This document shows, one piece after another, positions 3,824-27,440 of a DNA stretch of 58,706 nucleotides (position 1 is the first letter of the stretch; each line of letters begins with the position of its first letter). A program made the translations under genes and the position numbers. The stretch is taken from the IMG/VR virus record IMGVR_UViG_3300042889_000326, positions 1-58,706 of that record; one strand, given 5' to 3'. The notes below the pieces were generated by a model. That model saw only the letters and a list, made by a program, of their open reading frames with translations. It was not told the origin of the DNA and did no database searches. This DNA comes from a virus.

Positions 3824-5404
3824 ATGAGTATTTTTTATAACAATAATATTAATCTTAAAGCAACTAACAATGCTATTCAATTTACTGAAGAACAAGTTGC
3901 TGAATACATTCTTTGTAAAAATGATCCAATATATTTTATAAAGAAATATTGTAAAATTATATCGTTAGATCAGGGTCTAATTGACTTTAAATTATTTGAT
4001 TACCAAGTAAGATTTATAGAAGTCTTACATAACGAAAACCGCATTGTTTCAATGCAACCAAGACAGAGTGGTAAAACTCAAGTAGTTGCTGCTTATGTTT
4101 TATATTATAGTTTGTTCAATGATAACAAAACAATTGCTATTCTTGCTAATAAATCTGTTGCTGCAAGAGAAATTTTATCTAGATATCAATTGATGTATGA
4201 ATACCTCCCAAACTTTCTTCAACAAGGTGTTAAAACTTGGAACAAAGGTGATATTGAATTAGAAAATGGCTCAAAAGTATTCACATCAGCTACATCATCA
4301 TCTGGTATTCGTGGTAAATCTGTAAACATTTTATATATTGATGAGGTATCAATCGTCCCAAATAATGTTGCTGAGGATTTCTTCACATCAACTTATCCTA
4401 CTATATCATCTGGTACAACTACCAAAATTATTCTTACATCAACTCCATTAGGATACAACCACTTTTGGAAGTTCTGGAACGAAGCTGAAACTGGTGTTAA
4501 TGGATTTTCACCAGTAAGGGTAAATTATTGGGAACATCCTAATAGAGATGAAGCTTGGGCATTAAAACAAAAAGAGTTACTAGGAGAACTAAAATTTAAT
4601 CAAGAAATTTTATGTACTTTTCTTGGTTCATCCTCAACTCTGATAAATAGTGATACTCTTGCTAGACTTTCTGCCTCTTTAATTATCTACGCTAAAGATA
4701 ATCTTGATGTTTATGAAAGACCTATGATAAATAGAGTATACACAATGATTGTTGATGTTGCAAAGGGTGTTGGGGGAGATTATTCTGCTTTTACTCTTAT
4801 AGACATAACCGATACACCATATAAAGTAGTTGCTAAATATAGAAACAATCTAATTAGTCCTATGTTGTTTCCAAATGTTATATACAAGATAGGAACTGAA
4901 TACAACAATGCTCATATTCTAATAGAGGGTAATGTTGGAGAACAGGTAGGTTATATACTTTACAATGAGTTGGAGTATGAAAATATATTATTTATAAATA
5001 GAACCACACAAGGTCAAGCTATTACTGGTGGCTTTGGTTCTGGAAAAGCTCAAGTTGGTATTATCACTGATAAGAAAGTTAAGCGTATTGGTTGTTCTTC
5101 TCTTAAGATGTTAATAGAAGAGAACAAATTATTGATACCTGATGCAGATATTATATCAGAATTATCTACTTTTATAGAAGTTAGAGAATCCTTTGCTGCA
5201 GATAATGGTTATCATGATGATTTAGTGATGACTTTAGTTCTATTTGGGTGGTTAGTAACACAACCATATTTTAAAGAATTAAACAATATAGACTTGCGTT
5301 ATATGATTTACCAAAATCAAATGAAGCAAATAGAAGATGAATTAACCCCCTTTGGGTTTTATAATGATGGTACAGAGGAAGAACTTAGTTTAGTGAATTT
5401 TTAA
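3824..5404 (+). CDS. 17: Terminase large subunit gp17
   Basis: DNA-packaging motor ATPase and headful nuclease. The N-terminal ATPase domain shows a Q motif (FDYQVRFIEVLH ~60), Walker A (QPRQSGKTQV ~80), Walker B with catalytic glutamate (ILYIDEVSIV ~173) and the coupling motif LTSTPLGYNHFWKFW ~205. The C-terminal RNase-H-like nuclease carries acidic residues in VDVAKGVGGDYS (~310), ILIEGNVGEQ (~365) and YHDDLVMTL (~470). At 526 residues it is slightly shorter than T4 gp17. No intein or intron interrupts it, although this gene is a frequent intein host in related phages. The ribosome binding site is weak and overlaps the dispersed repeat just upstream. Confidence 0.96.
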   Translation: MSIFYNNNINLKATNNAIQFTEEQVAEYILCKNDPIYFIKKYCKIISLDQGLIDFKLFDYQVRFIEVLHNENRIVSMQPRQSGKTQVVAAYVLYYSLFNDNKTIAILANKSVAAREILSRYQLMYEYLPNFLQQGVKTWNKGDIELENGSKVFTSATSSSGIRGKSVNILYIDEVSIVPNNVAEDFFTSTYPTISSGTTTKIILTSTPLGYNHFWKFWNEAETGVNGFSPVRVNYWEHPNRDEAWALKQKELLGELKFNQEILCTFLGSSSTLINSDTLARLSASLIIYAKDNLDVYERPMINRVYTMIVDVAKGVGGDYSAFTLIDITDTPYKVVAKYRNNLISPMLFPNVIYKIGTEYNNAHILIEGNVGEQVGYILYNELEYENILFINRTTQGQAITGGFGSGKAQVGIITDKKVKRIGCSSLKMLIEENKLLIPDADIISELSTFIEVRESFAADNGYHDDLVMTLVLFGWLVTQPYFKELNNIDLRYMIYQNQMKQIEDELTPFGFYNDGTEEELSLVNF

Positions 5405-14548: not shown

Positions 14549-16291
14549 ATGACACTTAAAGAAAGACTAATCCTCTATAGAGAACTTAATCCAACACAAT
14601 GGGCTAAGATAATCTCAGACGAACAACTCAAACAAGATCTATTAGATTTTTCAGAATTCTCAGATATGCCACTTAACCAAAAAGCAGCAGCAATTATACT
14701 TGGGCATATACCTATATGTGAATGTGGCAATGAACTATCATTTCAAGGAAAAAGAAAAGAAACTATCAATGGAACTGTATATGGAGGATGGTTAGAATTT
14801 TGTTCTTCTAATTGCGTAAGAAATTCTCCCAAACTATTGGAAAAGAAACGTGCTAATTCTATAGAGAAATATGGAACTCCACATTGGACACAATCTAATC
14901 ATAAGCGAGAAGAAAGAGAAGAACTTTGGTCAGAAGATAAGAAAGCTTTATTTAATGCTAAAGCACTAATAACATATCAAGAAAAATATGGTGTAGGTCA
15001 TTTCAGCAAAACTCAAGAATATTTGGACAAAAGAACTTCAACTACATTAGAACAAACTAATGGTTTATATACAAACTACTTTCAAGATACTGATAAAATT
15101 AGAACAGTCAACAATGAAAAATATGGTGCAGATTATTATACACAAACTATTGAAGGTAGAAAAAGATTATCAGAAAATAATGGAATGAAAGAACCAACGA
15201 TTGCGTTAAAGTCTAAATTAAATAGAATATTAAAATCTAAAAAATATGGTGCATCATTATTTGATATTCTAATGAATAAAGATAGTGCACATTTTAAAGA
15301 ATTTATAGATAATATTGCTACTCTAAATAAGTATGTACATAGAATGCAGATAGCTAATCATTTAGATATTAGCTACTCTTGGTTGAATAATCTCTTCAGA
15401 CAACATGATATGAATAATGATTATTTAACATTAGGAACTTCTACATCCTTTAAGGAGTATGAATTGTTGCAATACGTAGAATCTTTAGGAGTTGTTGTAA
15501 AACATAGTGATAGAACTATACTAAATGGAAGAGAGATTGATATATTAATAGAAGATAAGAAGCTCGGTATAGAATTTGATGGATTAAGATACCATTCTGT
15601 TGTATCGGGTGGAAAAGACAAATATTATCACTTAGATAAAACAGAACTTGCTGAAATTAAAGGATACCAACTACTACACATATTTGAAAATGAATGGGAT
15701 GATACAGTAAAAAGATCTATATGGAAATCAATCATAAAATCTAAACTAGGGTTATCTGATAGAAGAATATTTGCTAGGAAATGTATACTAAAATCTATAT
15801 CATCAAAAGACAGTAGAGAATTCTTTGATAAGAATCATCTGTCTGGATTTATAGGGGCATCTATACATCTTGGGTTATTTTATAATGATGAATTAGTATC
15901 TGCTATATCTTATGGAAAGTCTCGTTTTGCTAAGAATGAGAATGAAATATATAGGTTTGCTTCTCAATTAGATTGCCAAGTTATCGGTGCACTGGGAAAA
16001 TTGTTATCTAAGTTGCCTAAAGAAAATTTAGTCTCTTATGCAGACCGAAGAATTTCTGGATTAGAATCTGCTTATGGGAAATTCTTTTCTAATAGAAAAA
16101 GTCTTCCTCCAACTTGGTGGGGAACTAAAGTTAAATTAGGAGAGCTCAGACATAGATTGAACTATACGAAATCTAAAGTTAAAGAAATGCTTGGAGATTT
16201 GTATGATGATTCCAAAACAGTCCAATATAATATGTTTAATAATAAGATTGATATAATTTATGATTGTGGCAACTGGAAATTCTACAACTAA
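14549..16291 (+). CDS. Free-standing homing endonuclease, Vsr-like nuclease domain
   Basis: 580-residue mobile endonuclease inserted between gene 23 and the next virion gene. N-terminal ~1-150 has a Cys-rich metal site (CECG ... CSSNC) and repeated EKYG motifs typical of homing DNA-binding regions. The nuclease core is at ~310-395: GREIDILIEDKKLGIEFDGLRYHS, then LLHIFENEW. This is the E-D-x-H-D pattern of the very-short-patch-repair fold reported for homing enzymes tied to fractured, split-intein genes. The C-terminal ~410-540 is a conserved domain (FFDKNHLSGFIGASIHLGL) often attached to such nucleases. The ribosome binding site is AGAAGGAATT. It would cut an empty site in related phages and promote its own spread. 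Confidence 0.8.
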   Translation: MTLKERLILYRELNPTQWAKIISDEQLKQDLLDFSEFSDMPLNQKAAAIILGHIPICECGNELSFQGKRKETINGTVYGGWLEFCSSNCVRNSPKLLEKKRANSIEKYGTPHWTQSNHKREEREELWSEDKKALFNAKALITYQEKYGVGHFSKTQEYLDKRTSTTLEQTNGLYTNYFQDTDKIRTVNNEKYGADYYTQTIEGRKRLSENNGMKEPTIALKSKLNRILKSKKYGASLFDILMNKDSAHFKEFIDNIATLNKYVHRMQIANHLDISYSWLNNLFRQHDMNNDYLTLGTSTSFKEYELLQYVESLGVVVKHSDRTILNGREIDILIEDKKLGIEFDGLRYHSVVSGGKDKYYHLDKTELAEIKGYQLLHIFENEWDDTVKRSIWKSIIKSKLGLSDRRIFARKCILKSISSKDSREFFDKNHLSGFIGASIHLGLFYNDELVSAISYGKSRFAKNENEIYRFASQLDCQVIGALGKLLSKLPKENLVSYADRRISGLESAYGKFFSNRKSLPPTWWGTKVKLGELRHRLNYTKSKVKEMLGDLYDDSKTVQYNMFNNKIDIIYDCGNWKFYN

Positions 16292-19741: not shown

Positions 19742-20005
19742 TTAGATCTGGATAATATTTTGATAAATTTCCTTTATCAAATGTAATGCGTGATCGACTA
19801 TGGATGTATCATAGTATAAATCAGAAAACCATATCGTCTCAACAAATTGCCTACCGTGTTTGTTAATATGAGCATTCCAATAAACACCGGAACCAAGATA
19901 TTTTATATGGTTGGGTGATGTAGTTTTGCCAAAGTATTTTTTCTTAGTAATAGAATGTTGTTTGATGTAAAGACGAGTTGGTATGATGGGTGTATAAATA
20001 TTCAT
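19742..20005 (-). pseudogene. Truncated GIY-YIG homing endonuclease
   Basis: The only minus-strand gene. 87 residues align with the first part of the GIY-YIG enzyme at 25173: RLYIKQHSITKKKYFGKTT against TYLYVKTHNITNLKYFGKTT, then GSGVYWNAHINKHG against GSGKYWTRHINKHG. The frame stops where the nuclease domain would continue, and no DNA-binding region follows. It keeps an AAGGAG ribosome binding site and an upstream late promoter. It is probably a decayed homing gene between genes 55 and 47, though a short peptide could still be made. Confidence 0.75.
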
Positions 20006-20119: not shown

Positions 20120-20153
20120 AAGCAGAGTAATATAAATCATAAAGGAGAATCTT

Positions 20154-21206
20154 ATTAAAATCTGTCTACTTGGCGATGCCCACCTAGGAATTCAAAGTGC
20201 GAATCCTAACTTTATCTCATATTTTGATAAATTTTATACTAACGTCTTTATGCCATATCTAATCGATAATCACATCAAAACCGTGTTCCAACTAGGAGAT
20301 CTCTTTGATAAGAGACGTTCTATAGATTTTCTTTCGTTGGCTGAGAGCAAGAGGTTTCTATTCAAACCTTTGCAAAAAGCAGGAATTAATTTCCATACTA
20401 TTCTAGGTAACCATGATTTATATTACAGAGAATCCTTATCAATAAACTCAACAGGATTGTTGCTTGGCGAATTTGATAATATTCATATGTACGACAAACC
20501 AACTAAGGTTATGTTTGATGAAACGTCTATTGATGTTATACCTTGGATATGTAAAGAGAATGAATTAGATATATTTGAGTTTATGTGTGGTAGTAAATCT
20601 GATTTATGTTTTGGGCATTTTGCCATACTTGGTTTTAGTATGCAAAAGGGTATGAAATCACACGAAGGAATATCTACCGATCTATTTGCTAAGTATGAAA
20701 AGGTTTTCTCTGGTCATTTTCATACAAGGTCTGATAAAGAGAATATTCTTTATGTCGGAACACCATACGATAACACATATGCCGACTTGAACGACCCAAA
20801 AGGATTTCATATATTCGATACCGAAACTAGACAAACAGAATTCATTAAGAATCCATATACAATGTTTATCAGGCATGAATATGATGATGTAAAGAATGAT
20901 TATAATACTATAGATATGTCACAATTTCATCATAAGTATGTGAAAATTGTAGTTACTAATAAAACTGATTTTTATATGTTTGATAAGTTTTTGAAGAAAC
21001 TTTATGATGCAGATACATATGAAATAAAGATTCTAGAAGATCTATCAGACTTCTCAGAAGGTATTGTTGATACAGAAGAAGTTAGTATAGAAAACACTCT
21101 TGATGTACTTGAGCATTATGTTGATTCCGTGACTGATGAATCTAATCAAGAAAAGATTAAAACATTCATGAAAAGTTTATATTTAGAGGCACTTGAGATT
21201 CAATGA
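20154..21206 (+). CDS. 47: Recombination nuclease subunit gp47, apparent AUU start
   Basis: Mre11/SbcD-type metallophosphoesterase, partner of gp46 in end resection and host DNA degradation. Motifs are GDAH (residues 7-10), GDLFDKR (~47), GNHD (~84) and GHFHTR (~186). The first ATG, at 20250, would remove the metal-binding GDAH motif. The frame continues upstream as IKICLLGDAHLGIQSANP and has no ATG, GTG or TTG, but ATT at 20154 lies 6 bases after AAAGGAG. I therefore place the start at ATT. The resulting 350 residues fit T4 gp47 (339). The stop overlaps the gene 46 start by 4 bases. Confidence 0.85.
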   Translation: MKICLLGDAHLGIQSANPNFISYFDKFYTNVFMPYLIDNHIKTVFQLGDLFDKRRSIDFLSLAESKRFLFKPLQKAGINFHTILGNHDLYYRESLSINSTGLLLGEFDNIHMYDKPTKVMFDETSIDVIPWICKENELDIFEFMCGSKSDLCFGHFAILGFSMQKGMKSHEGISTDLFAKYEKVFSGHFHTRSDKENILYVGTPYDNTYADLNDPKGFHIFDTETRQTEFIKNPYTMFIRHEYDDVKNDYNTIDMSQFHHKYVKIVVTNKTDFYMFDKFLKKLYDADTYEIKILEDLSDFSEGIVDTEEVSIENTLDVLEHYVDSVTDESNQEKIKTFMKSLYLEALEIQ

Positions 21207-21439
21207 TATTATTTAAGAATATTGAATATAAAAACTTCCTATCAACAGGTAATGTAACCAATAGAATTTCTCTTAATGAGAACAATACTACATTGCTAGT
21301 TGGTAAAAATGGTCACGGAAAGTGTGTTTGTATAAATACACCTATAAAGATCCAGAATAAAAAAACTGGAGAAATAATAGAAACTACTATAGGTGAACTT
21401 TATGCACAAGAGAAACAGAACAACGGAAGAAAAGATTGA
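21203..21439 (+). CDS. 46: gp46 N-terminal fragment fused to N-intein
   Basis: Residues 1-40 are the start of gp46 (Rad50/SbcC-type ATPase): LFKNIEYKNFLSTGNVTNRI, then LLVGKNGHGK, the Walker A loop up to its lysine. Cys at 21323 begins an intein: CVCINTPIKIQNKKTGEIIE is a block-A sequence with nucleophilic Cys1. The frame stops after 38 intein residues. The matching C-intein is in a separate gene at 22438, so gp46 must be made by trans-splicing. The N-intein is short, like the atypically split phage inteins of the AceL-TerL class. It begins inside the gp47 stop (ATGA). Confidence 0.9.
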   Translation: MILFKNIEYKNFLSTGNVTNRISLNENNTTLLVGKNGHGKCVCINTPIKIQNKKTGEIIETTIGELYAQEKQNNGRKD

Positions 21440-22454
21440 AGATTGTTTAGATAATGCTATTAGAAATCTGCATCCTAAATTTAGGGAAGATCTATATCAA
21501 GTATTATTAAATAATCCAGAGAAAGCAAAAAGTGTATCTAAGAGTAAACAATTTATATATACTTTATATAAGTTTCCAGAACTAGGTATATTTACTAAAG
21601 AATATTGGCTTGCAAGAGGTTGGAGTGAGAGTGAATCTAACTATAAATCTAAACAAAGTAACACTAGAAAGAAAGTTCCATCTCCGTTTTCTAAGGAATT
21701 TTGGTTAGAAAAGATAAACCCAAACACATACACTTTATATTCAGAAATAGAAGCGGATTATAAGAGAAATTCTCAAAGACCGATACGAAAAGAATATTGG
21801 TTAGAGCTAGGACACTCTGAGCAAGAATCTATAGAATTGGCATTGCAACAAAAAGTTAGTAATAATAATTCTGGTGCTATATCTAGTGGGTCAAAAGATG
21901 AAGATTTATATAAATCAGTGTCTCCTAGATGTAAAGAATATTATATGTTACGAGGATTTACAGAAGAAGAATCTATTGATAAAGTGTCTGACGCTCAAGC
22001 AACATTTTCTAAAAATAAATGTATAGAAAAATATGGAACAGAAGAGGGTACTAAAATATGGCAAGAGCGCCAAGATAACTGGCAGAAAACTTTGTCCTCT
22101 AAAACTGAGGAAGAACAGGATTATATAAACAGAAGTAAAGCAACCAAAATAAACTATAGAACATTATGGGATAAAGATTTAAATACGTCTGGAATTCTTT
22201 ATTTACTAAAAGTGTATAAAGATGAAGAAGTGTTTTATAAAATAGGGATAACAACTAAAACTATACGACAGAGATATAATGGTTACACAATAGGTGGTTA
22301 TGATTATGAAATTATTAAAACTGTTAGTGATACTATCCACAAATGTTTTTTAATGGAACAAGATATCATTAAGAGTAATAAATCTATTAGATATAACCCT
22401 AATGAAAAATTTGAAGGTTGGACGGAGTGTTTTATAAATGAGCCAGTTATCTGA
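21402..22454 (+). CDS. Homing endonuclease inside the split gp46 gene
   Basis: About 350 residues in a different frame from both gp46 halves. I choose ATG 21402 (AGGTGA 7 bases upstream); GTG 21393 is an alternative. Residues ~50-190 contain three or four repeats around (F/I)xKE(Y/F)WLExGxSExES, probably DNA-binding modules, followed by KCIEKYGTEEGTKIWQERQ, seen in many homing enzymes. The C-terminal ~80 residues (GILYLLKVYKDEEVFYKIGITTKTIRQRY) look like a GIY-YIG/T5orf172-type nuclease. It overlaps the N-intein end by 38 bases and the C-intein start by 17, the tight packing expected of an endonuclease gene that invaded an intein and split it. Confidence 0.8.
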   Translation: MHKRNRTTEEKIEDCLDNAIRNLHPKFREDLYQVLLNNPEKAKSVSKSKQFIYTLYKFPELGIFTKEYWLARGWSESESNYKSKQSNTRKKVPSPFSKEFWLEKINPNTYTLYSEIEADYKRNSQRPIRKEYWLELGHSEQESIELALQQKVSNNNSGAISSGSKDEDLYKSVSPRCKEYYMLRGFTEEESIDKVSDAQATFSKNKCIEKYGTEEGTKIWQERQDNWQKTLSSKTEEEQDYINRSKATKINYRTLWDKDLNTSGILYLLKVYKDEEVFYKIGITTKTIRQRYNGYTIGGYDYEIIKTVSDTIHKCFLMEQDIIKSNKSIRYNPNEKFEGWTECFINEPVI

Positions 22455-24405
22455 AATAACAAATCGTAAGTTTATTGAAAGTTTTGAAGTGAATGAATGG
22501 AATATTGAAACGGATAAGGGGTGGTCTCCAATTACCCATATTCATAAAACTATCCCTTATCAAGAATGGTTATTAGTTACTGAATCGGGGTTTAGGTTAG
22601 AATGTGCTGATACGCATATTGTTTTTGATGAAAACTTCGCTGAGTTATATGTAAAAGATTGTATACCATTTGTCACTAGAATTATAACTAAATCTGGAAT
22701 TGAAACAATTGTGGAGGTTTCTAATATAGAAACCAAATCTAGTATGTATGATTTAACTATCGATTCTAACGACCATAGATTTTATACTGGAAGAATATTA
22801 TCTCATAACTCAACTATAATAGATGCGTTAACTTTCTCTCTGTTTGGAAAACCATTTAGAAATATAAGCAAAAACCAATTGATCAATTCTATCAATGGAA
22901 AAGCTACTCTAGTAACAATAGAATTTGATGTTGCTGGAAGTTCTTATAAAGTTATAAGAGGAATCAAACCAAACATATTTGAAATATGGAAAAATGGTGA
23001 GATGATTAATCAGGATGCTTCTGTAAGAGATTATCAGACTGTACTTGAACAACAAATTCTGAAGATGAATTATCGGGCATTTACTCAAATAGTTATTCTA
23101 GGTGCCGCAACTTTTGTCCCATTCATGCAATTAACTGCATCCAATAGAAGAGAAGTTATTGAGGATATTCTAGATATTAGAATTTTCAGTAATATGAATA
23201 TCATTCTAAAAGATAAAATTCAAAGCACTAAGAAAGCTATAGATGCTATTGATACTAATATACTACTAGTTAAATCCACTGTAGAGAATCAAAAGAAGTT
23301 GATTGATACAATGATGGCTAGTAAACAATCTCATATTGAAAGTGTTCAAAGTAGAATTGATAACAACAAACAAGAGATAAAATTAACTAAAACAAAATCA
23401 TTAGATATCATTAAAACTATTAATGATTTACAACAGCAAATTGTTGATGGTGTTTCTATACAGGAAACTATTTCTTGTGCAAAGGGTATGATCAGAAATA
23501 TTGAACATAGCAATAGCATAACTAAGAAATCTCTAGGTTTTTTTGATACGAATGACAATTGTCCATCATGTGCACAAAATATTTCGCATGAACACAAAAC
23601 ATCAATAAGAGATATATTGCAGATAGATTATGATTTGAATTTAGTAGAACTAGAAGAGTTGCAACAAGAATTAGAAAGATGTAATATCCGTAAAGCTGAA
23701 ATTGATAACATCACCGCAGAAGTTCTTGATGCAAAGAAAGTTATACATGGACATAAGTTTACAATTCTAGCATTGGAACAACAAATTGTAAATCTTGAAG
23801 AAGATATAAAAAATGCATTAAAAGACCAAGGTAACATAGATCTAGAACGTGATAAGTTAAAAGCATATGCCTCTGAAGCAATAGAGAATATCAATGCTAA
23901 GACCTTGTTACAAGAGCAAAGGAGCATTGAAGATATTGCTTCAGTTCTTCTAAAAGATACAGGAATTAAAACTGCAGTTATCCGCGAATATCTTCCAGCA
24001 ATGAATACTCTTATAAATAGGTATCTAACTGCAATGGATTTTTATGTATCATTTGAACTAGATGAATCATTTAATGAATCTATCAAATCTAGATATAGAG
24101 ATAATTTTACTTATGCTAGTTTCTCGGAAGGTGAGAAGAAAAGATTAGATCTTGCTATACTATTTGCATGGAGAGAAATTGCTAGACTGAAGAATTCTGC
24201 TAACACTAATCTATTGGTATTGGATGAAGTTCTGGAGGGATCACTTGACATCAATGGTACAGACTATATAATGACATTGCTATCTTCATTAGGTGATGAT
24301 ATTAATGTTTTTGTCATCAGCCATAATGTTGATCAGATTCAGGATAAGTTTGATAAGATTCTAACTGTAGAAAAGAAACATGATTTCAGTGAAATAAAAG
24401 ATTGA
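22438..24405 (+). CDS. 46: C-intein fused to gp46 C-terminal fragment
   Basis: Residues 1-124 are a C-intein: IETDKGWSPITHIHKT, block B ECADTHIVFDE with conserved His, block F SSMYDLTIDSNDHRFYTG and the terminal ILSHN. The next residue, Ser at 22810, is both the +1 splice nucleophile and the Ser of Walker A (GK|S). The remaining 531 residues are gp46: LFGKPFRNISKNQL, coiled coils, a CPSC zinc hook (~380 of this product), and the ABC signature FSEGEKKRLDLAILFAW with Walker B LLVLDEVLEGSLD. Ligation with the 40-residue N-extein gives 571 residues (T4 gp46 is 560). Without splicing neither half has a complete ATP site. Confidence 0.92.
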   Translation: MSQLSEITNRKFIESFEVNEWNIETDKGWSPITHIHKTIPYQEWLLVTESGFRLECADTHIVFDENFAELYVKDCIPFVTRIITKSGIETIVEVSNIETKSSMYDLTIDSNDHRFYTGRILSHNSTIIDALTFSLFGKPFRNISKNQLINSINGKATLVTIEFDVAGSSYKVIRGIKPNIFEIWKNGEMINQDASVRDYQTVLEQQILKMNYRAFTQIVILGAATFVPFMQLTASNRREVIEDILDIRIFSNMNIILKDKIQSTKKAIDAIDTNILLVKSTVENQKKLIDTMMASKQSHIESVQSRIDNNKQEIKLTKTKSLDIIKTINDLQQQIVDGVSIQETISCAKGMIRNIEHSNSITKKSLGFFDTNDNCPSCAQNISHEHKTSIRDILQIDYDLNLVELEELQQELERCNIRKAEIDNITAEVLDAKKVIHGHKFTILALEQQIVNLEEDIKNALKDQGNIDLERDKLKAYASEAIENINAKTLLQEQRSIEDIASVLLKDTGIKTAVIREYLPAMNTLINRYLTAMDFYVSFELDESFNESIKSRYRDNFTYASFSEGEKKRLDLAILFAWREIARLKNSANTNLLVLDEVLEGSLDINGTDYIMTLLSSLGDDINVFVISHNVDQIQDKFDKILTVEKKHDFSEIKD

Positions 24406-25172: not shown

Positions 25173-25838
25173 ATGTTTAAACCAACATATCTTTATGTTA
25201 AAACGCATAATATAACAAATTTAAAATATTTCGGTAAAACTACTGCAAAAGATCCATATTCATATAAAGGTTCTGGCAAATATTGGACTAGACATATCAA
25301 TAAGCATGGTTATGATGTTTCTACTGAAATCATAGGTTATTATAATGATGAGCAAGAATGTATGAATATCGCATTACAATTCAGTAATGATAACAATATA
25401 GTAAAATCTTCAGAATGGGCGAATCTTAAAGAAGAAACTTTAGATGGAGGATGGGATTATATTAACGATAACGGTAAAAATATTTACGGAAAAAATGGTC
25501 AATCTAGATATGGTTTAGAAAATTTAATAAAAAACACTTCACAATATATGAGAGATAATGGAAGATATGAAGAATATATAAAATCTATTTCTAATAGTTT
25601 AAAAGAAGGATATAGTTCAGGAAGATTGATTAATCATTTTAAAGGAAAAACTCATACTGATGTTACAAAAGCAAAAATAGGTGCTGCGAGTTCATTAAGA
25701 GAATCTGGAAAAGGAAATTCACAATATGGTACTATGTGGATTACTAATGGAAAGGAAAATAAAAAGATTAAAAAAGATTATATTATACTTGATGGATGGT
25801 ATAAAGGTAGAACAGTAAAAAGTGAGCAGTGCTCTTAG
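25173..25838 (+). CDS. GIY-YIG homing endonuclease
   Basis: 221 residues. TYLYVKTHNITNLKYFGKTT at the start is the GIY-YIG motif region (YLYVK, YFGKT), with GSGKYWTRHINKHG next. The helix LQFSNDNNIVKSSEWANLKEE is typical of free-standing phage enzymes. Residues ~140-180 (SSGRLINHFKGKTHTDVTKAKIG) hold a NUMOD-like DNA-binding module, followed by GNSQYGTMWITNG. The stop codon lies within the acceptor stem of the tRNA-Asn that follows, so the gene is inserted right against the tRNA. Confidence 0.88.
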   Translation: MFKPTYLYVKTHNITNLKYFGKTTAKDPYSYKGSGKYWTRHINKHGYDVSTEIIGYYNDEQECMNIALQFSNDNNIVKSSEWANLKEETLDGGWDYINDNGKNIYGKNGQSRYGLENLIKNTSQYMRDNGRYEEYIKSISNSLKEGYSSGRLINHFKGKTHTDVTKAKIGAASSLRESGKGNSQYGTMWITNGKENKKIKKDYIILDGWYKGRTVKSEQCS

Positions 25839-25917
25839 GTACTCTAATGGTAAGAGATTTGACTGTTAATCAAACGTATACAGAAATGTTATGGGGGTTC
25901 GAGTCCCTCCCTAAGAG
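25833..25917 (+). tRNA. tRNA-Asn (GTT) with expanded variable region
   Basis: Acceptor TCTTAGG/CCTAAGA, D arm CTCT-AATGGTA-AGAG, anticodon arm TTTGA-CTGTTAA-TCAAA (anticodon GTT), T arm GGGGG-TTCGAGT-CCCTC. The region between anticodon and T stems is 18 bases instead of about 5, which is odd for a class I tRNA. The acceptor helix extends outward to 14 perfect pairs (GCAGTGC with GCACTGC). CCA is not encoded. The stop of the upstream homing gene overlaps the 5' acceptor strand. Confidence 0.75.
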
Positions 25918-25975
25918 CACTGCTTATTTAAACAAACTTCAAGGTAAAAACTTGAAAGAAAACACTTCAAATGTC

Positions 25976-26024
25976 GGGAGATACAATTTGAATAATGGTG
26001 CAGTAAAAGTCTGTGATATCTCCC
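25976..26024 (+). ncRNA. 49-nt acceptor-like stem-loop
   Basis: GGGAGAT and ATCTCCC form a perfect 7-bp stem closing a 35-base interior with one hairpin, CAG-TAAAAGT-CTG (7-base loop). It is not followed by a T run, so it is not a simple terminator. It could be a shrunken tRNA relic or part of tRNA-Asn processing. A second small hairpin (CTTCAAG/CTTGAAAG) lies at ~25937-25956. Confidence 0.4.
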
Positions 26025-26046
26025 CCTAATTATTATAAAATAAGTC

Positions 26047-26075
26047 TTTACTTTTTGAAATAGTCGTAGTATAAT
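26047..26075 (+). promoter_or_regulatory. Host-type promoter
   Basis: TTTACT (26047-26052), 17 bases, TATAAT (26070-26075). It precedes a 54-codon gene and the stable RNA cluster and may drive the whole RNA array. The following AACTTATAAATTAAATTATTGAGA is repeated almost exactly after the promoter at 56697. Confidence 0.75.
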
Positions 26076-26108
26076 AACTTATAAATTAAATTATTGAGAG
26101 ATTATATT

Positions 26109-26273
26109 ATGAAAGAAGTGAAATATGCTTATAAGGTAATGTGGTATGACGATTCCTGGATGGAAGAACCAAGGGTGGTGACCACTTGTGAAGATGAACA
26201 GACAGCGTACAACTTCATAGAGTGGAAGTATGAATCCGAATTCCATTATATTGAAAGAGAAATTGTTGAATAG
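26109..26273 (+). CDS. Small acidic protein
   Basis: 54 residues starting at ATG 26109, MKEVKYAYKVMWYDDSWMEE, ending IEREIVE. It is preceded by TTGAGAG in the same leader used elsewhere after host-type promoters. No family is recognised; the Trp/Tyr/acid-rich composition recalls small early phage proteins. Its stop codon is 5 bases before the first member of the repeated RNA family. Confidence 0.6.
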   Translation: MKEVKYAYKVMWYDDSWMEEPRVVTTCEDEQTAYNFIEWKYESEFHYIEREIVE

Positions 26274-26278
26274 ATTTA

Positions 26279-26358
26279 TCGTTTGTGAAGTTTTTAAACG
26301 AAAGTAAAACACTACGGTCTGGCATGGGACTGATAAATGGTGGGGTAAGAGTCCCTAA
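26279..26358 (+). ncRNA. Repeated structured RNA family, copy 1
   Basis: Hairpin 1 TCGTTT/AAACGA, conserved joint CGAAAGTAAAACACT, hairpin 2 CGGTC/GACTG, then GGTGGGGTAAGAGTCCCTAA, which is shared with copies 2 and 3. The stem sequences differ between copies while pairing and the single-stranded cores are kept. No known RNA family is recognised. Confidence 0.6.
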
Positions 26359-26383
26359 ATATGTCCCTAATTAAAAAGAATTA

Positions 26384-26466
26384 ATCGGAGTAATTTCCCG
26401 AAAAGTAAGCACTGCCAATAGTAGAAGGCGAATCTACTGGAACAACGGTGGGGTAAGAGTCCCTAA
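26384..26466 (+). ncRNA. Repeated structured RNA family, copy 2
   Basis: Hairpin 1 TCGG/CCGA, joint CGAAAAGTAAGCACT, hairpin 2 GTAG/CTAC flanked by CCA/TGG, AACAAC, then GGTGGGGTAAGAGTCCCTAA. The first 35 bases differ from copy 3 by only four substitutions. CACT can also pair with GGTG to enclose hairpin 2, and AATTAA/TTAATT flank the whole unit. Confidence 0.65.
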
Positions 26467-26482
26467 GTACGCGCTTAATTTT

Positions 26483-26557
26483 CGGAATGTAGCTCAGTTT
26501 GGTAGAGCAGTTTGTTAGTGATAACATTTAAGCATGAGTTCGAATCTCAGCGTTCCA
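26483..26557 (+). tRNA. Degenerate tRNA-like element, anticodon unclear
   Basis: GGAATG/CGTTCC acceptor pairs (first position C-A), canonical TA at 8-9, D arm GCTC-AGTTTGGTA-GAGC and T loop TTCGAAT with a 4-bp stem are all present. The anticodon arm does not fold normally. The aligned 7-base loop TTAGTGA would give AGT (Thr) on a stem with two mismatches, while a tight local hairpin TGTTA-GTGA-TAACA is stronger. It may be a decayed or unusual tRNA. Confidence 0.5.
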
Positions 26558-26566
26558 CACCTAATT

Positions 26567-26633
26567 ATCCTTGTCGTCTAGTTGGTTAGGACAATCGTAT
26601 TGAGGAGCGTGGGTTCAAATCCCACTGTAGGTA
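26567..26633 (+). tRNA. tRNA-like element A with shortened anticodon arm
   Basis: D arm GTCTAGTTGGTTAGGAC and a perfect T arm (GTGGG-TTCAAAT-CCCAC) in tRNA order, but only 16 bases lie between them instead of about 22, with a mini-hairpin (C)AAT-CGT-ATT(G) in place of the anticodon arm. Its own acceptor strands (ATCCTTG and TGTAGGT) do not pair; each instead pairs with a strand of the next element at 26636-26702. No functional anticodon can be read. Confidence 0.55.
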
Positions 26634-26635
26634 AA

Positions 26636-26702
26636 ATCTACATAGTCTAGTTGGTTAGGACACTCTAACAGAGAAACTTGGGTTCAACTCCCAACAAGAA
26701 TA
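26636..26702 (+). tRNA. tRNA-like element B with shortened anticodon arm
   Basis: The D arm is identical to element A, with T arm TTGGG-TTCAACT-CCCAA. Again exactly 16 bases lie between them, containing the mini-hairpin CTCT-AAC-AGAG. The 5' strand ATCTACA pairs 7/7 (one G-T) with TGTAGGT of element A; the 3' strand CAAGAAT pairs 6/7 with ATCCTTG of element A, extended by two further A-T pairs. A and B together fold as one closed two-lobed RNA. Confidence 0.55.
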
Positions 26703-26709
26703 ACTTCAA

Positions 26710-26753
26710 TGCCGAAAGATGGGACAACTGCGTAGCGGAAGTCAAAGACGGCA
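26710..26753 (+). ncRNA. Long irregular hairpin
   Basis: TGCCG/CGGCA encloses GAC/GTC and then CTGC-GTA-GCGG, giving one coaxial hairpin in the RNA cluster. It has no T run and no tRNA features. Function is unknown. Confidence 0.45.
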
Positions 26754-26754
26754 C

Positions 26755-26854
26755 TTTATAAAGCACATTCATTGGCTATCAGACAATACTGGTATAATCC
26801 CTTGTAACATATTTGAGATATATGGGGAGGTCATTCTCGGAGTGTGCTTTATAA
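26755..26854 (+). ncRNA. Stem-closed RNA unit 1 of the TTTATAAA array
   Basis: TTTATAAAGCACATTC and GAGTGTGCTTTATAAA form a 16-bp inverted repeat with one G-T. The interior has TATCAG-ACAATA-CTGGTA, CATAT/ATATG inside TCCC/GGGGA, and GAG-GTCATT-CTC. It has cloverleaf-like order but no T-loop consensus. The 3' arm TTTATAAA also opens unit 2. Confidence 0.5.
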
Positions 26855-26856
26855 AA

Positions 26857-26947
26857 CACATTCGCCCTTGATCAGGTTCAGCTGGATTGCTGAGTAAGTG
26901 CTGGTATGTACTATGCTTAACACGGTTCAATTCCGTGACAGAGTGTG
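26857..26947 (+). tRNA. tRNA-Ser-like (GGA) class II element, unit 2
   Basis: Closing stem CACATTC/GAGTGTG, short arm CCT/AGG, anticodon-like arm TTCAG/CTGAG with 8-base loop CTGGATTG (T33 then GGA), 26-base variable arm closed by TAAG/CTTA, and a perfect T arm CACGG-TTCAATT-CCGTG. The order and long variable arm fit tRNA-Ser. Abnormal points are the 8-base anticodon loop, a D arm without GG and three extra bases (ACA) between T stem and acceptor. No CCA is encoded. Confidence 0.5.
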
Positions 26948-26961
26948 TTTTATTAAACATA

Positions 26962-27012
26962 TTAGTCGGGTTTATATAAATTCGCTTACTCGTTAAGAAT
27001 AGAGGCGACTAA
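26962..27012 (+). ncRNA. Stem-closed RNA unit 3 of the array
   Basis: TTAGTCG/CGACTAA closes a 37-base interior with CTTA/TAAG; outside it AACATA (26955) pairs with TATGTT (27026) near the flanking TTTATTAAA segments. An alternative pairing GAATAG/CTATTC overlaps. It lacks T-loop and D-loop motifs. Confidence 0.4.
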
Positions 27013-27043
27013 AACTATTCTATAGTATGTTTTATTAAATATT

Positions 27044-27119
27044 GCGGACGTAACTCAATTGGTAGAGTATCTGATTTCCAATCAGAATGTTGCTGGATCG
27101 TACCCAGTCGTCCGCTCCA
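27044..27119 (+). tRNA. tRNA-Gly (TCC)
   Basis: A complete cloverleaf: GCGGACG/CGTCCGC, D arm ACTC-AATTGGTA-GAGT, anticodon arm TCTGA-TTTCCAA-TCAGA (TCC), variable ATGTT, T arm GCTGG-ATCGTAC-CCAGT. CCA is encoded after discriminator T. The T loop starts with A rather than T, which is unusual. Confidence 0.9.
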
Positions 27120-27124
27120 ATTTA

Positions 27125-27208
27125 ATCGGAGTAATTACCCGAAAAGTAAACACTTCCAGTAGGTCGGTGCTGGAACAATGGTGGGGTAAGAGTCCCTGAA
27201 CTCCCGAT
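27125..27208 (+). ncRNA. Repeated structured RNA family, copy 3
   Basis: ATCGGAG, hairpin region TTAC-CCGAAAA-GTAA, CACT, hairpin 2 TTCCAG/CTGGAA, CAAT, then GGTGGGGTAAGAGTCCCT and CTCCCGAT, which pairs with ATCGGAG with one bulge. In this copy the order (outer stem, two hairpins, GGGG-TAAGAG-TCCC hairpin, outer stem) mimics a cloverleaf, raising the possibility that the family descends from tRNAs. Confidence 0.65.
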
Positions 27209-27218
27209 CACAATTTAT

Positions 27219-27294
27219 TGTTCCCTAGTGTAACTTGGTAGCACATCTCCCTTTGACGGAGCTAGTACAGATTCAAATTCTGTGGGAACTGCCA
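27219..27294 (+). tRNA. tRNA-Gln (TTG)
   Basis: Acceptor TGTTCCC/GGGAACT (first pair T-T), D arm GTG-TAACTTGGTAG-CAC, anticodon arm CTCC-CTTTGAC-GGAG (TTG), variable TAGT, T arm ACAGA-TTCAAAT-TCTGT, discriminator G and encoded CCA. The region after it (27295-27364) holds small hairpins (CTACC-AGT-GGTAG, GCCG-TATCGTC-CGGC) and no gene. Confidence 0.85.
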
Positions 27295-27364
27295 AACTCA
27301 TCTACCAGTGGTAGAAGAAGAGGTTGCCGTATCGTCCGGCATCACAATAGACGACCATCATATC

Positions 27365-27440
27365 GGGGGTATAGCTCAGTTGAAAGAGCGGTGTAATAGC
27401 ATTACATAGGTCATAGGTTTAATCCCTATTATCTCCACCA
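27365..27440 (+). tRNA. tRNA-Ala (AGC)
   Basis: A full-length cloverleaf: GGGGGTA/TATCTCC (two G-T pairs), D arm GCTC-AGTTGAAA-GAGC, anticodon arm GTGTA-ATAGCAT-TACAT, variable AGGTC, T arm ATAGG-TTTAATC-CCTAT, discriminator A and encoded CCA. T33 is followed by AGC, reading Ala GCU. A34 is rare in bacterial and phage tRNAs, so the identity should be treated with care. The D loop lacks the usual GG. Confidence 0.75.

Follow-up and report, generated by a model that had tools for sequence, protein, structure and literature searches.

Sequence evidence for an atypically split intein at the Walker A motif of phage gp46, with a GIY-YIG endonuclease gene between the halves

Fractured genes, in which split inteins occur together with a separately encoded homing endonuclease, were described by Dassa et al. 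in 2009 (cited in PMC7090010). The AceL-TerL and GOS-TerL inteins, of 25+104 and 37+115 amino acids (aa) respectively (PMC11766414), are split after the first helix, and in VidaL the split follows strand 2 and leaves an N-part of 16 aa (PMC13014065). In AceL NrdHF, a fractured gene of presumed phage origin, a GIY-YIG endonuclease lies between the pieces (PMC7891396).

The window analysed here, i.e. the whole stretch of DNA under study, is a 58.7-kb virus record from an assembled-contig collection (IMG/VR) and represents a fragment of a genome. It is part of a T4-like phage, with genes for sheath, major head protein, helicase and DNA polymerase; its terminase gene (3824-5404) is intact and intein-free. 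In an earlier note on this DNA, gp46 was claimed to be cut within Walker A between GK and S, by a 38-residue N-intein starting at Cys 21323 and a 124-residue C-intein ending in SHN before Ser 22810, with a homing endonuclease gene between the halves and three reading frames joined by short overlaps. The ORFs, residues and coordinates described below agree with these claims.

Organization of the gp46 locus

The gene for gp46 (SbcC/Rad50-like) is present as two ORFs on the plus strand, an N-half at 21203-21439 (78 aa) and a C-half at 22438-24405 (655 aa), and Walker A is divided between them, with GK in the first and ST in the second. The N-half encodes a 40-aa N-extein (21203-21322), which ends in ..VGKNGHGK, the first part of Walker A, and matches positions 295-333 of the SbcC-like PHROG profile phrog_77 (3e-08). 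It is followed by a 38-aa N-intein (21323-21436) with Cys1 (codon at 21323) and the stop codon (21437-21439), so that the ORF ends in GKNGHGK followed by CVCINTPIKIQNKKTGEIIETTIGELYAQEKQNNGRKD. The C-half starts with MSQLSEITNRKFIESF and encodes a 124-aa C-intein (22438-22809) with block B His60, block F Asp105/His113 and block G His123-Asn124. At the intein/extein junction (...RFYTGRILSHN/STIIDALTF) the Asn codon ends at 22809 and the Ser codon starts at 22810. The 531-aa C-extein (22810-24402; stop codon 24403-24405) begins with the +1 Ser of Walker A and matches positions 334-953 of phrog_77 (1.1e-133). Since positions 333 and 334 of the profile adjoin across the two halves, the cut entails no loss of gp46 sequence. 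The exteins joined in silico form a protein of 571 aa. When this sequence was compared with intact gp46 genes in viral contigs (tblastn), 77 of 80 alignments crossed the junction, and the junction (..NG.GK^ST..) was free of gaps in all 25 of those alignments that were listed.

Between the halves lies a homing endonuclease gene (HEG; 21402-22454, plus strand) of 350 aa from ATG 21402, with a match to the endonuclease profile phrog_681 (3.5e-14); GTG 21393 is a possible alternative start. The HEG begins inside the N-intein. The N-half, HEG and C-half occupy frames 2, 0 and 1 (mod 3), with overlaps of 38 nt between N-half and HEG (from ATG 21402) and 17 nt between HEG and C-half. Shine-Dalgarno-like stretches precede the HEG (AGGTGA ahead of 21402) and the C-half (CGGAG ahead of 22438). 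The layout is thus that of a fractured gene, as the earlier note had proposed.

A sequencing or assembly error could split an ORF that in reality is one continuous intein-containing gene. The origin of the window in a collection of assembled contigs is compatible with such an artefact, as is the existence of contiguous relatives of the intein in terminase genes. However, the same split, frames and 17-nt overlap recur in three contigs from other samples (L081, L082, L194), the overlap being exactly 17 nt in all four GIY-YIG gp46 loci. In most Vsr-like gp46 loci the endonuclease/C-half overlap is 25 nt, no gp46 locus is contiguous, and the HEG region of the window holds 19 and 60 stop codons in the other two frames. 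As the split architecture recurs in many independent contigs, it is beyond chance. Hidden frameshift errors, set out beforehand as what would refute the split, are contradicted by the comparative sequence of the relatives; the overlaps conserved in other contigs rule out a frameshift artefact, and an artefact of any kind is exceedingly improbable.

Removal of the insert at the RNA level, as a group I intron, or bridging by ribosomal frameshifting was also considered. A precedent for the former is a phage terminase gene that is spliced at the RNA level beside a T5orf172 endonuclease (PMC10448857). No Rfam intron family was matched, however, when the whole window was searched for a group I intron, the ends of the mobile unit described below are the intein ends (Cys and Asn codons), and the coding parts match inteins. 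Frameshifting would require two changes of frame, and a TAA directly precedes the ATG of the C-half. The probability of either route is practically negligible.

Upstream, the gene for gp47 (SbcD/Mre11-like nuclease partner; 20154-21206, plus strand; phrog_100 3.7e-93, Pfam Metallophos for 20250-21203) overlaps the start of the gp46 N-half with its 3′ end. Its start codon is probably a non-ATG codon (ATT, 20154-20156), because the first ATG comes only after the metallophosphoesterase motif GDAH, and AAGGAG precedes the ATT (from 20141-20160 onward: AAGGAG..ATT AAA ATC..GGC GAT GCC CAC). Three further homing-endonuclease-like ORFs (14549-16291, 19742-20005 on the minus strand, and 25173-25838) are found near the head gene and on both sides of gp47-gp46; one matches phrog_3339 (homing endonuclease), one is a short GIY-YIG-like piece and the third is GIY-YIG-like with a weak NUMOD3 match. 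A cluster of five tRNA genes (25833-27437) is located downstream of gp46.

Class and conservation of the intein

Judged by its residues and relatives, the insert that fractures gp46 is an atypically split intein of class 1. Position 1 and block A (CVCINTPIKI at 21323) are those of class 1, and the block B His, block F Asp/His, C-terminal His-Asn and +1 residue are all in place. Every gp46 N-intein located by a scan, the pattern of which accepted Cys or Ser at position 1, starts with Cys1. By tblastn, the C-intein is homologous to both contiguous and split terminase inteins in cultured phages (E down to 7e-25). With a C-intein profile of 13 sequences, the top matches among solved inteins were gp41-1 (2.1e-11) and VidaL (5.3e-9), and CatC, the AceL/GOS-TerL consensus, was matched at 2.5e-7; the resemblance to the AceL-TerL class proposed earlier is supported by these profile matches. 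As a single query, the window C-intein gave no significant match to VidaL/CatC-type inteins, and the 38-aa N-intein alone gave no match in cultured phages. The identity of the N-intein is based on its position and on alignment with contiguous relatives, in which both intein parts are present in one chain.

A Hint fold was predicted for the single chain of a contiguous homologue (L154) with a mean pLDDT of 88.9, and the best PDB match of the model was VidaL (6vgv; E 2.9e-10, TM 0.84 on target). In the model, strands 1-2 and helix 1 are followed by a low-confidence linker (about residues 36-60), and by this prediction the break in the window intein would fall there, in a disordered loop. The 38+124 geometry fits the AceL/GOS-TerL class, because the split follows helix 1 and the two parts are close in size to those of GOS-TerL. 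The N-part is one residue above the published range for atypical splits (about 15-37 aa) and was counted as atypical.

Among viral contigs, 28 distinct gp46 C-inteins were found, that of the window included, and 28/28 are split, none being contiguous. Invariant in all of them are A57, D58, H60, D105, H113 and L121-S122-H123-N124, and the +1 residue is always Ser or Thr. The gp46 genes belong to two distant lineages, and the intein layout is kept over many lineages. The same intein family occurs in terminase genes in both split and contiguous forms. Whether all gp46 inteins have one origin or arose by several jumps from terminase was addressed with a C-intein tree of only 124 columns, in which parsimony gives 4 changes and the well-supported branches force 1. 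On the gp46 tree, intein gain and loss amount to 3 changes, with long branches meeting. The dN/dS values relative to the window are 0.10-0.22 for the C-intein, and that of the HEG is about 0.20 (window versus L081/L082), which shows purifying selection on both.

We consider it highly probable that the fractured gene is explained by a trans-splicing split intein in gp46 together with homing by the GIY-YIG endonuclease. Two gp46 precursors would be made from the separate ORFs, each of which overlaps the HEG, and the N-intein and C-intein would associate into one Hint fold. Trans-splicing would then proceed by an N-S acyl shift at Cys1, transfer to Ser+1 and cyclisation of Asn124, joining ..GHGK to STIID.., whereby Walker A would be rebuilt and the gp46 ATPase restored. 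We infer that gp46 activity depends on this splicing. The endonuclease would cut near GK/ST in those gp46 genes of co-infecting phages that have no intein, and repair would copy the N-intein, HEG and C-intein into the cut genes.

A gp46 that works as two non-covalently associated chains would dispense with splicing. Genes split by an HEG that function as two peptides do exist, as in a phage ribonucleotide reductase that works as two non-covalent chains (PMC10448857). In gp46, however, the cut lies inside Walker A, intein sequence with invariant splicing residues is found at the cut in both pieces, and the C-intein is strongly constrained, which makes a two-chain protein very improbable.

The endonuclease and the mobility of the unit

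The earlier note had named no class for the endonuclease, and the mobility of the unit, the domain swap and the relatives that lack an endonuclease are additions to it. The HEG carries a GIY-YIG/T5orf172 catalytic domain (22191-22403, plus strand; GILYLLKVY..FYKIGIT..R..E) that matches Pfam PF10544 with an E-value of 0.0014 and 19.6 bits, just below the Pfam cut-off of 20 bits; the enzyme does not belong to the Vsr-like (EDxHD) family. An AlphaFold model of the HEG (mean pLDDT 63) was poor over the catalytic domain (<50) and was left out of the evidence. A Vsr/DUF559-like motif is found in the endonucleases of many gp46 relatives. The first 250 or so residues of the HEG (21402-22151) form an N-terminal module, delimited by alignment and by tblastn of L085-L097, that aligns with gp46-locus endonucleases that bear a Vsr/DUF559-like C-terminal domain. 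A common N-terminal module joined to differing nuclease domains indicates that the catalytic domains were swapped; target recognition is presumably the role of the module.

An internal deletion in L083 has left only the first 23 and last 20 codons of the endonuclease, and in L117, L122 and L149 no endonuclease is present between the gp46 halves. The halves are still separate in all four loci. Splitting thus outlives the mobile gene. These losses would also be in keeping with a dead gp46, of which the intein and endonuclease are relics. Against decay, the HEG, C-intein and 531-aa C-extein of the window are all open, the dN/dS values of HEG and C-intein are well below 1, and many lineages share the layout, so that relics are extremely unlikely.

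The N-intein, HEG and C-intein move as one unit between diverged phages, to judge from the change of identity at the intein ends and from the incongruence between host and intein. Between L081 and L082, nucleotide identity is 96.5% in the N-intein, 99.1% in the HEG and 99.2% in the C-intein, compared with 57.5% in the N-extein, 69% in the C-extein and 56% in gp47. In 30-nt bins, the identity is 66% before the bin with the Cys1 codon and 96% in it, and drops from 96% to 70% past the bin with the Asn codon. L083 and L194 share 80% aa identity in the gp46 C-extein and 65% in the C-intein; L083 and the window share 41% in gp46, 81% in the C-intein and 97% nt identity in the N-intein. The N-side identities of L083 were taken from a codon alignment, as this contig fell out of the binned DNA alignment at that side.

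Relatives in other P-loop genes and comparison with known systems

In seven terminase loci (L125, L179, L111, L135, L138, L141, L157) the intein ORF is open across an out-of-frame Vsr-like endonuclease region, with 0 stops over 281-316 codons versus 15-23 expected from synonymous-codon shuffling; zero stops were reached in 0/3000 shuffles. The same phase in the endonuclease genes of split loci contains 48-64 stops. The Vsr-like endonuclease thus looks to be nested in a contiguous terminase intein ORF by dual coding. L130 and L135 have near-identical terminase genes that differ by exactly 714 nt, in frame, at the endonuclease region, which is absent in L130; the flanks are 99% and 96% identical. 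An out-of-frame HNH endonuclease has been described in a phage methylase, in an element that its authors could not identify as an intein (PMC11855218).

Seven other terminases (L118, L119, L131, L132, L134, L169, L171) apparently have two split inteins, at Walker A and between HN and C[EH]FLGS, and would come in three pieces. Similar split inteins are seen at the P-loops of other ATPases, namely helicase-like (L156, L158, L184), clamp-loader-like (L186) and PhoH-like (LR756500.1 38000-43500 / L108) proteins, these host names being motif-based only. Two cultured phages, Campylobacter phage F379 (MT932329.1) and WX1 (OP654737.1), have near-identical terminase genes; that of F379 is split with a GIY-YIG gene between and that of WX1 is contiguous, a natural before/after pair.

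A tentative reading, to which we give somewhat less than even weight, is that one mobile intein family with an out-of-frame endonuclease has become a specialist for Walker A codons in the P-loop ATPase genes of phages, i.e. gp46 and terminase and, singly, the helicase-like, clamp-loader-like and PhoH-like hosts. In some terminase members the intein ORF would remain open across the endonuclease region; on closure of the intein frame the intein would become split, and the endonuclease would later be lost while the gene stays split. If true, the series would reveal both the way in which split inteins come about and the reason for their persistence. The relatives form a natural series of contiguous, dual-coded, split with endonuclease and split without, with two endonuclease types on one N-terminal module, so that hypotheses on how split inteins originate and spread can be tested directly.

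If gp46 is indeed spliced in trans, the core recombination nuclease of a T4-like phage depends on protein trans-splicing through its ATP-binding loop. Since a possible contribution of gp46/gp47 to homing in T4 has been suggested (PMC2988022), the element may occupy a gene used in its own movement. The gp46 family is also a source of many new pairs of atypically split inteins that are candidates for use in protein ligation.

AceL-TerL and GOS-TerL resemble the window intein in the short N-part and long C-part, the split after the first helix, the phage P-loop ATPase host and the CatC profile match. Their host is terminase, whereas that of the window is gp46, with Cys1/Ser+1, 38+124 aa and a GIY-YIG endonuclease. 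VidaL, the best structural match of the contiguous family member, differs in being split after strand 2. The endonuclease of the fractured genes of 2009 is reportedly Vsr-like, in contrast to the GIY-YIG enzyme of the window; Vsr/DUF559-like enzymes occur in many gp46 relatives. Those genes, in the account given in PMC7090010, share with the window a host gene in two ORFs with the endonuclease ORF between. AceL NrdHF is likewise a fractured gene with an intervening GIY-YIG endonuclease, but is of class 3, with a canonical split (98+48) and a ribonucleotide reductase host (PMC7891396). Homologous C-inteins, with 36-45% identity, occur in the terminases of F379 and of Ackermannviridae and Campylobacter phages in which the intein is contiguous (VP-1, allotria, WX1). 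The split terminase of F379 has the same order of N-half, GIY-YIG gene and C-half. The host is terminase in all four phages, and VP-1, allotria and WX1 are contiguous.

In the earlier note gp46 was not known as a described host for this class, and no such description was found in the literature searched, which did not include the founding 2009 paper on fractured genes; gp46 is likely a novel split-intein host gene. Fractured genes, atypically split inteins and a GIY-YIG endonuclease in a fractured gene (AceL NrdHF, PMC7891396) are already known. As far as could be checked, novelty lies in gp46 as a host represented by many members, in the sharply bounded signature of homing by a split intein unit, in the swap of nuclease domains, and in stable splits that have no endonuclease.
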